Below are positions 7,311-9,854 of a stretch of 64,000 nucleotides of DNA, piece after piece. The position numbers were made by a program, and so were the translations under genes. Source of the DNA: Actinomycetota bacterium (GTDB lineage: Bacteria; Actinomycetota; Acidimicrobiia; Spongiisociales; UBA5794); assembly GCA_013151445.1 (NCBI GenBank), contig JAADIG010000137.1, forward strand, positions 23,815 through 87,814, written 5' to 3'. The notes under the pieces were generated by a model, which saw nothing but the letters and a program-made list of their open reading frames with translations, searched no databases and had not been told where the DNA came from. Numbering within the stretch: position 1 is the first letter of the stretch; each line of letters begins with the position of its first letter.

Positions 7311-7868
7311 ATGATGTCCGAAGTAACCCGAGACTCAGTCGACACTGCACACCGCATCGCAGATGAGCTGTTCAGCGTCTACCCGACGGAGTTCGGTGCG
7401 GCGAGGGCCGCTTATCACGGTCATGTGCACAGGGGCATCGATCTTGTCGCCCACCAGATGGATCTTGACGAAGCGACCGGGAAGCTGTTGGGGGTGGCGG
7501 GCTTTTTTCACGATGCGGGGATCTGGCTCGACAACACCTTCGACTATTTAGGTCCGTCGATCCGGCGGGCTCTTGATCATCTGCATGACGTCGATGCGGG
7601 GGGTGAAGATCTGGTGCGGCTGGTTATCTTTGAGCACCATCGGTTGCGGAGGGCGAGGTCCGAGCATCCGCTCGTGGAAGCGTTTCGGCGTGCCGATCTC
7701 ACGGACCTCACCGGCGGCCTTGTTCCGAGTCCCGGGGTGTCGTTTCGGGAGTATCGGCAGATCGGTGGGCGGTACCCGTCTCATGGGTTCCGTTGGAGGC
7801 TCACGGTGATCTTTTTGCGGTGGACGCTGCGGCACCCGCTGCGACCGCTCCCCATGATGAAGTGGTAA
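7311..7868 (+). CDS. HD-domain-like phosphohydrolase family protein
   Basis: YHGHVHRGIDLV...GFFHDAGIWLDNT (H...HD arrangement)...FEHHRLRR. Confidence 0.65.
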   Translation: MMSEVTRDSVDTAHRIADELFSVYPTEFGAARAAYHGHVHRGIDLVAHQMDLDEATGKLLGVAGFFHDAGIWLDNTFDYLGPSIRRALDHLHDVDAGGEDLVRLVIFEHHRLRRARSEHPLVEAFRRADLTDLTGGLVPSPGVSFREYRQIGGRYPSHGFRWRLTVIFLRWTLRHPLRPLPMMKW

Positions 7869-7937: not shown

Positions 7938-8019
7938 AGGATGATCGTGCTCGTTGACTTGATCAACTGCGCCGTAGCTGCGTGATCCGCGACTCTCGCC
8001 ACCACACAGAAACTTCTTG

Positions 8020-8041
8020 ACATTCCTGTTGACTGGAATGT
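8020..8041. promoter_or_regulatory. Inverted repeat ACATTCC-N8-GGAATGT overlapping a TTGACA -35-like hexamer
   Basis: Perfect 7-bp arms 50 nt upstream of the small ORF at 8091. Confidence 0.55.
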
Positions 8042-8090
8042 GTACGGTGGCTGCGTGTAGCCAGATGAAACGTTCGGGAGCATCGAAACG

Positions 8091-8282
8091 ATGGAGCATG
8101 CAGGAATAGCAGTACAGGCGGAGCGCCCCCGCGGGCGTCCCGCAAAGAGGTTCATGCCGGGGAGAATCTGTATCGAACCGGAGTGTGTGACCCTCCTCAG
8201 TACGTACAATCCGAACGATATGTGTTTCCGGCACAGTCCGATCCGTTTCCCGCGGACCCGTGGTCGGGTGGATGTAGAGTGA
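8091..8282 (+). CDS. Small basic protein with AT-hook-like motif (RPRGRPAKR) and C-x4-C-x15-C-x2-H Zn-finger-like motif
   Basis: MEHAGIAVQAERPRGRPAKRFMPGRICIEPECVTLLSTYNPNDMCFRHSPIRFPRTRGRVDVE; own putative promoter/operator; GTGA overlap with the next gene. Confidence 0.65.
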   Translation: MEHAGIAVQAERPRGRPAKRFMPGRICIEPECVTLLSTYNPNDMCFRHSPIRFPRTRGRVDVE

Positions 8283-9205
8283 CTGATTTCTTGACGGCCG
8301 TCACGGCGATGCGAGGCGATGAGACTCGCTCGGATCATGATCATCCACGTTCGGCAGCTACCAAAACGAAACGCCGACCGGTACGTGGCTCGTTGGATGA
8401 ATTGCACACATCGACGGTCGGCGGCCAGATTCGGCAGGGGCAGACGCCGTTCATATTCCTGCACGGGCTTGGCGGGACCCAGGTGTACTGGACCGCAGCC
8501 GACAGTGACAGGTACCTGCCGCCACAGTCGACTCTCGTCGATCTTCTCGGGTTTGGCCAGTCACCCAGACCGTTCAAGAAGTACACCCTCGACACGCATC
8601 TCGCCGCACTGGAGGCGGCGTTGGCTGGGCAACCTCCAGCGATCCTTGTCGGGCATTCCCTCGGGGCCGCTCTCGCATTGGCCTATGCCGTGCGCAATCC
8701 CGAGAGTGTGAAGGGACTGGTGCTGATCAGCCTCCCGTCGTACGGCGGCACCCAGGGGGCGATCCGTTGGCATCGACGACGGCTCAGCGGCTGGTTTCTC
8801 ACCAACATGGTGCTTACTGGCCTGGCGTGTGTGACATCACGTCGACTGTTGGGGCCTCTGCTTCCCTTGATACTGCGCGACATACCCCGCGAGGTGGCTC
8901 GTGACCTTGTCGAACACAACGTCATGTCGTCGACTACGTCGCTGTGGAATGTGTTGTATCGCCGTGATGCGGTCGACGACCTCGATGCGCTCGCTCCCGA
9001 CCTTCCGGTTACGTTCATCCACGGGACCAAGGACGGCACCGCTCCGATCGACTCGATTCGTGCCGTCACCGACGGGTACGAGAATCGGAAGCTGATCGAA
9101 CTCGAAGGAGTTGACCACCACCCCTGGTTGCGAGCCCCCGGCGCATGCGCTGCGGCCATCGCCGACGCCGGGCGCGCCATTCAGACAGCACCACCAAAAG
9201 CATGA
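8279..9205 (+). CDS. Alpha/beta hydrolase fold protein
   Basis: FIFLHGLGGTQ, LVGHSLGAAL nucleophile elbow, C-terminal DHHPW; GTG start at 8279 chosen because 8183-8278 overlaps the small ORF. Confidence 0.85.
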   Translation: MTDFLTAVTAMRGDETRSDHDHPRSAATKTKRRPVRGSLDELHTSTVGGQIRQGQTPFIFLHGLGGTQVYWTAADSDRYLPPQSTLVDLLGFGQSPRPFKKYTLDTHLAALEAALAGQPPAILVGHSLGAALALAYAVRNPESVKGLVLISLPSYGGTQGAIRWHRRRLSGWFLTNMVLTGLACVTSRRLLGPLLPLILRDIPREVARDLVEHNVMSSTTSLWNVLYRRDAVDDLDALAPDLPVTFIHGTKDGTAPIDSIRAVTDGYENRKLIELEGVDHHPWLRAPGACAAAIADAGRAIQTAPPKA

Positions 9206-9236: not shown

Positions 9237-9854
9237 CTACTCGGGTGGGCGGAACCCGATCGCCGCACGCTCGGTTCGTGATCTCTTGAGTTCCCAGAAA
9301 CCCGGTGTGGACCCCGCGGCGTGAACGCCATCCCACAAGCGCAGGGCTGCATCGATTTCGAGTTCGCGAGAAATCACCGGTCCGAAGATGGCGACCGGTT
9401 CGCCCTCAGCGTCATCAAATCCGATGATTGGTGTTCCGACGTCTTCACCGGTCAGTGCAAGAGCTTCGGCCATGCTTGCCGAGATCGTGTCGTCCCACGA
9501 AACATCGTCGGCCGCGAGCGCAAACTTACTGTCCAGACCGACGGCATCGAGGGCTTGCGCGGGATCGAAGTCGATATCCTGACCGAGGTGGATATGGCGG
9601 CCGTACTCGGTGTAGAGGTCACCGATGACCGCATCGCCCTTTTCGGAGCGAACGGCCTCAAGGACTCGCAGAAGCCGATGACTCTTGGTGTAGATGCCGG
9701 TGAAGGGGTGGTCCGGGTTATCAACGTTTTTCATCTTGAGACTGATTGACCGCCATCGAACGTCCAGGTCGCGGTGCGGTGCCACGTTGACGATCCAGCG
9801 CGATGTCATCCAGCACCATGGACAGATCGGGTCGAGCCAATAGTTCACTCTCAC
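9237..9854 (-). CDS. DsbA-family protein, mycothiol-dependent nitroreductase (Rv2466c)-like
   Basis: WLDPICPWCWMTSRWIVNVA with CPWC active site. Confidence 0.85.
   Translation of the reverse strand: MRVNYWLDPICPWCWMTSRWIVNVAPHRDLDVRWRSISLKMKNVDNPDHPFTGIYTKSHRLLRVLEAVRSEKGDAVIGDLYTEYGRHIHLGQDIDFDPAQALDAVGLDSKFALAADDVSWDDTISASMAEALALTGEDVGTPIIGFDDAEGEPVAIFGPVISRELEIDAALRLWDGVHAAGSTPGFWELKRSRTERAAIGFRPPE

Follow-up and report, generated by a model that had tools for sequence, protein, structure and literature searches.

A probable metal-stress operon pairing a small conserved Cys/His protein with an alpha/beta hydrolase in an acidimicrobial genome

The window analysed here, a stretch of 64,000 nucleotides (G000:C1:23815-87814) from a 3.07-Mb assembly, harbours at positions 8017-9205 what is probably a two-gene metal-stress operon under a MerR-family sensor of the CadR/ZntR type (Table 1). 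This sensor, for which G000:C106:1920-2123 is the candidate gene, would sit on the 20-bp-spacer promoter; binding of a thiophilic metal would cause it to untwist the DNA and thereby bring the -35 and -10 boxes into line, and transcription would start. The first product would be a basic protein of 63 aa folded around one metal ion via Cys27, Cys32, Cys45 and His48, and the second, an alpha/beta hydrolase, would be made by translational coupling. The small protein would represent a stress-specific paralogue of a housekeeping protein encoded elsewhere in the lineage, notably in a sigH-rsrA-(small protein)-metalloprotease-tilS-hpt-ftsH locus. Membership of both genes in a metal-stress regulon is the most likely reading of the locus.

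Table 1. Predicted features of the operon; positions refer to the window.
Feature	Positions	Strand	Basis
-35 box TTGACA of the MerR-type promoter	8017..8022	+	Sequence; kept in 69 aligned sites
Dyad ACATTCC-N8-GGAATGT, predicted MerR/CadR-type operator filling the promoter spacer	8020..8041	+	Pattern and half-site likeness to the published HmrR/CueR signal (PMC1526738)
-10 box TACGGT, 20-bp spacer from -35	8043..8048	+	Sequence; TANNNT at 20 bp in related sites
Shine-Dalgarno-like GGGAG (AGGAG in G006)	8076..8080	+	Sequence; comparison with G006
Small basic protein, putative zinc knuckle, 63 aa, metal-regulon subfamily (C27, C32, C45, H48)	8091..8282	+	Family conservation; coding selection
Alpha/beta hydrolase, GTG start within the GTGA overlap	8279..9205	+	PF00561; comparison with G006

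The open reading frame of 63 aa pointed out in an earlier note on this DNA is a true gene under purifying selection. Its orthologue in G006, a relative of the same genus used as reference for comparisons of the window locus, shares 86% identity, and nonsynonymous changes are strongly depleted, as coding selection in this frame predicts (pN 0.094, pS 0.709, dN/dS ~0.05). Differences are distributed 8/4/34 over the codon positions, with 34 of the 46 changes at position 3, and the other two frames display the reversed substitution pattern.

Judged by sequence, the small-protein family spans deep-branching Actinobacteriota and nearly every genome of the acidimicrobial order. Relatives were found in 48 of the 50 genomes of the same family, in 134 of the 138 genomes of the order (subfamily profile search) and in 76 of the 397 genomes sampled across the phylum. 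They are also present, usually in two copies, in a class-mate family with genomes of roughly 1 Mb; this retention and the near-universal distribution point to a protein that probably does core work. No Pfam or NCBIfam model covers the family. Nothing above the cut-off was retrieved for the small protein from Pfam, NCBIfam or PHROGs, no homologues were detected in phages or plasmids, and literature searches retrieved no description of it. A relation to RbpA, suggested by an N-terminal MSDxxLKGxR look-alike, lacked Pfam support and was rejected.

Residues R25, C27, C32, Y39, N40, C45, H48, R57 and G58 are invariant in the family alignment. The Cys and His positions are conserved in 51 of 51 sequences of alignment A4, and 115 of the 117 unique members possess the complete CCCH set, the four ligands expected of a zinc knuckle. 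The Cys/His motif described earlier is thus present with conserved ligands, although its spacing is C27-x4-C32-x12-C45-x2-H48 and not x15 in the centre. The AT-hook proposed for the same protein did not hold. The segment RPRGRPAKR resembles the core of AT-hook proteins (PF02178), but its score with the Pfam AT_hook model, 12.9 bits, falls short of the cut-off (17.4); N-terminal GRP is restricted to 4 of the 117 members, and the operon counterparts of G086 and G109 carry RGRAPRR without GRP. In the type of Cys/His spacing the family is similar to the CxC6 (PF18721) cysteine-cluster and zinc-knuckle modules, with weak matches in 5 of 12 family members (best E 0.00068). The window protein itself is unmatched by this model and has no fold match, and the basic N-terminal tail and the PRxRG tail are specific to the small-protein family.

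AlphaFold predicted the 63-aa protein with pLDDT ~90 at residues 21-40 and pTM 0.44, without helices or strands. A Foldseek search with this model returned nothing significant and no PDB fold, and when the family profile was searched against PDB sequences, RAR1 alone was returned (E=1.1). Since the model contains no secondary structure and has no fold match, support for the knuckle comes solely from conservation, and any biochemical role for the small protein is inferred from conservation and genomic context.

Members of the family belong to different paralogue types. Type 1 lies, in many genomes of the class, directly after genes encoding an ECF sigma factor and a zf-HC2 (RsrA-like) anti-sigma factor, and is followed by Zincin_2, tilS, hpt and ftsH; elsewhere in the phylum, in the sampled genomes, it adjoins zincin-tilS-hpt-ftsH without a recognised sigma pair. 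Type 2 follows the apolipoprotein N-acyltransferase gene lnt and faces an argD-like aminotransferase gene. The window-type small protein constitutes a third group. The window's own genome also possesses a paralogue within a sigma/anti-sigma-Zincin_2-tilS-hpt-ftsH locus (L062:9939-10148, on G000:C19). The same order, with the small protein after the sigma pair, was found in L065, L067, L068, L071, L073, L076, L077 and L080, across families and beyond the class. In family f12, with genomes of roughly 1 Mb (L137 and L145 of G059; G054; G081), two copies are kept, one of them flanked by genes for a pepF-like peptidase and for an HMA/copper-type P-ATPase. Three window-type copies are found on one contig in L064 (G024:C183), two with a MerR-type operator within about 75 nt; two of the three have lost a metal ligand (Cys) and retain most of the remaining core.

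The palindrome reported upstream of the small gene is perfect and unique in the window, where 0.20 dyad matches with ≤2 mismatches are expected by chance. The TTGACA hexamer is likewise present, and the dyad overlaps its last 3 bases. TTGACA-N20-TACGGT at 8017-8048 exhibits the spacer of 19-20 bp typical of MerR-type promoters. Perfection of the palindrome is not what is conserved in G006, where one arm base differs, but rather the promoter/operator block, since the whole 22-nt block TTGACATTCCTGTTGACTGGAA is identical amid diverged surroundings. The window dyad is in fact atypical, with a diverged centre and T at position 22, where 91% of the sites have G; its perfection stems from the chance complementarity of A (position 5) and T (position 22), the combination in most sites being A/C with G. 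The palindrome probably forms the central part of a MerR-type metal promoter; that the small protein itself binds there is improbable. As the locus is apparently switched on by a MerR/CadR-type sensor, the palindrome is predicted to be the docking site of that sensor. The case shows that MerR spacing needs checking before a perfect palindrome that covers a -35 box is credited to the product of the downstream gene. The Rfam search of the region gave no match.

The pattern TTGACMTTCCN8RGARNG was searched genome-wide in 137 genomes of the order, with the reversed pattern as control. It yielded 96 sites (summed over the site table) in 39 of the 137 genomes, against 2 for the control. The -10 box TANNNT, which lies outside of the search pattern, has a spacing of exactly 20 bp in 51 of 69 sites, and no site has it at 15-19 or 21-24 bp. 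Genes following the sites encode YHS/HMA P-type ATPases, an HMA protein, SHOCT and SPW membrane proteins, a CMAS methyltransferase, an FAD oxidoreductase and 14 paralogues of the small protein. The window's own genome has a further site ahead of an HMA E1-E2 ATPase gene (C97), and a one-mismatch site at a contig end ahead of an SPW-like gene (C18). Among the 117 family members, 14 possess the operator, all of them inside one group of 18 rows in a poorly resolved tree (SH-aLRT 89). Upstream of the start, at a distance of about 67-77 nt, the third group shares the consensus CTTGAC[AC]TTCC-N8-GGAAGG-N3-TANNNT; this distance increases to about 520-540 nt in some members, whose site is placed ahead of the leading gene of the operon. 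A 20-bp-spacer, 4-bp-centre, HmrR-like operator defines a metal regulon in this order, among whose members the CMAS, SPW and FAD-oxidoreductase genes are not commonly associated with metal resistance.

In the earlier note, the small protein was taken for an AT-hook/zinc-finger factor that, through binding at the palindrome, controls its own operon, including the hydrolase. The basic N-terminus, the conserved CCCH set and the upstream palindrome are compatible with this, as is the confinement of the operator, within the family, to the window-type subfamily. Nonetheless, we consider it very improbable, because the operator has MerR geometry, precedes many metal-resistance and other genes outside the family, and is accompanied by divergent CadR-like MerR genes, while about 100 other family members lack it. 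Furthermore, the rarity of GRP speaks against such a regulator, a single small knuckle would be poorly matched to a dyad of two turns, and in G120 the hydrolase gene comes immediately after the operator, with no small gene between.

Control by a MerR-family sensor agrees with the genes found beside the sites: metal-resistance targets and a MerR gene are linked to the operator in relatives, and a divergent CadR-like MerR gene starts within 18-132 nt of nine sites. Eleven MerR-domain matches were detected in the genome of the window, and the one on C106 is the homologue of the operator-adjacent MerR genes; it is encoded on a different contig from the operon and does not adjoin it. The C106 protein matches PF13411, PF00376 and PF09278 above the cut-off and thus possesses a MerR helix-turn-helix. 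Its nearest solved relative is CadR (6jyw, E=1.4e-21), to which the first two ligand-type Cys residues (STC, DPADC) align, followed by 4ua1 (an entry named regulatory protein), CueR and then a mercuric-operon regulator.

The MerR-type signals described in the literature are palindromes lying within spacers of 19-20 bp, such as the HmrR signal ACCTTCCAG-(3)-CTGGAAGG (PMC1526738, Permina et al. 2006). Similar to the metal promoters of CueR/HmrR, CadR and ZntR, the promoter found here has a long spacer with a palindrome between -35 and -10, a target set with P-type ATPases and an HMA chaperone, and divergent MerR genes. The half-sites ACMTTCCAG/CTGGAAGGT are close to those of HmrR, whereas the centre is 4 bp and the spacer 20 bp, against 3 and 19 in HmrR/CueR. 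Compared with known MerR targets, the regulon adds the SPW, SHOCT and CMAS genes, the putative zinc-knuckle protein and the hydrolase. Assignment to the CueR/HmrR regulon sensu stricto was rejected, given the spacer of 20 bp instead of 19 and a candidate regulator closest in the PDB to CadR. The half-sites are HmrR-like and the regulator CadR-like, and the identity of the inducing metal is not readable from these sequences.

Membership in a metal regulon and the richness in Cys and His would also suit a metallothionein-like buffer or chaperone, under MerR control, whose CCCH set binds the inducing metal, and P-type ATPase and SPW genes are found in the vicinity of the small gene in G086 and G140. 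However, the CCCH core and the flanking PRxRG are invariant in the housekeeping paralogues at sigH-rsrA-tilS-ftsH or lnt, outside of metal loci. In addition, one site per 63 aa would give a low capacity, and two G024 copies lost a Cys yet kept most of the rest; a buffer is therefore unlikely. The metal link is limited to the window-type subfamily, as the operator is missing from the housekeeping paralogues. We favour a small protein that binds nucleic acid or the transcription or translation machinery via its basic N-terminus and PRxRG tail, which is the weakest step of the proposal. Tentatively, the family could be a previously unnamed core zinc protein of deep-branching Actinobacteriota, whose MerR-controlled paralogue would replace or supplement the one co-inherited with SigH-RsrA when metals displace zinc. 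If true, the transcription or translation machinery would exchange one paralogue for another under metal stress. Since one branch of the family is tied to a defined metal regulon, it provides an inducer that can be tested, a candidate regulator and a partner enzyme.

The second gene encodes a protein matching Abhydrolase_1 with 71.6 bits (cut-off 25.8), in which GHSLGA (nucleophile), HGTKD (acid) and DHH (histidine) motifs were recognised by inspection. Hydrolase orthologues (threshold E 1e-25) were found in 7 of the 138 genomes of the order, so the pairing with the small gene rests on few genomes. A window-type small gene lies immediately upstream of the orthologous hydrolase in G000, G006, G086 and G109, which belong to two families. 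In G140 each of the two genes is located at a contig end of its own, with the small gene behind two P-type ATPases and SPW; this is compatible with adjacency. No small gene was seen upstream of the hydrolase in G309, where the available stretch ends shortly before it. The arrangement in G120, together with the other genomes, suggests that the hydrolase belongs to the regulon independently of the small gene. The GTGA overlap described earlier is present, and G006 has AGGAG before the ATG of the small gene and ATGA in place of GTGA, which supports the hydrolase start at 8279 and the coupling of both genes. The overlap in G000 and G006 could also indicate that the small frame acts mainly as a translational leader setting hydrolase expression, with little role as a protein. 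We give this hardly any credence, considering the purifying selection at the amino-acid level, the phylum-wide family mostly without a hydrolase, and G086, where the genes do not overlap and the hydrolase starts downstream.

The neighbouring genes are also kept in G006. Convergent with the hydrolase, a gene for an Rv2466c-like mycothiol-dependent nitroreductase is located at 9240-9854 (-). In Mycobacterium, the Rv2466c gene is a SigH target. Because of this downstream gene and the paralogue beside sigH-rsrA, a SigR/SigH promoter (GGAAT-N18-GTT) was considered as well; it was rejected, as GTT is missing at the spacing that such a promoter needs and G006 has not retained the GGAAT box. Upstream, at 7311-7868 (+), lies a gene of 185 aa without a Pfam match, whose HVH and FHDAG motifs suggest an HD-type hydrolase.
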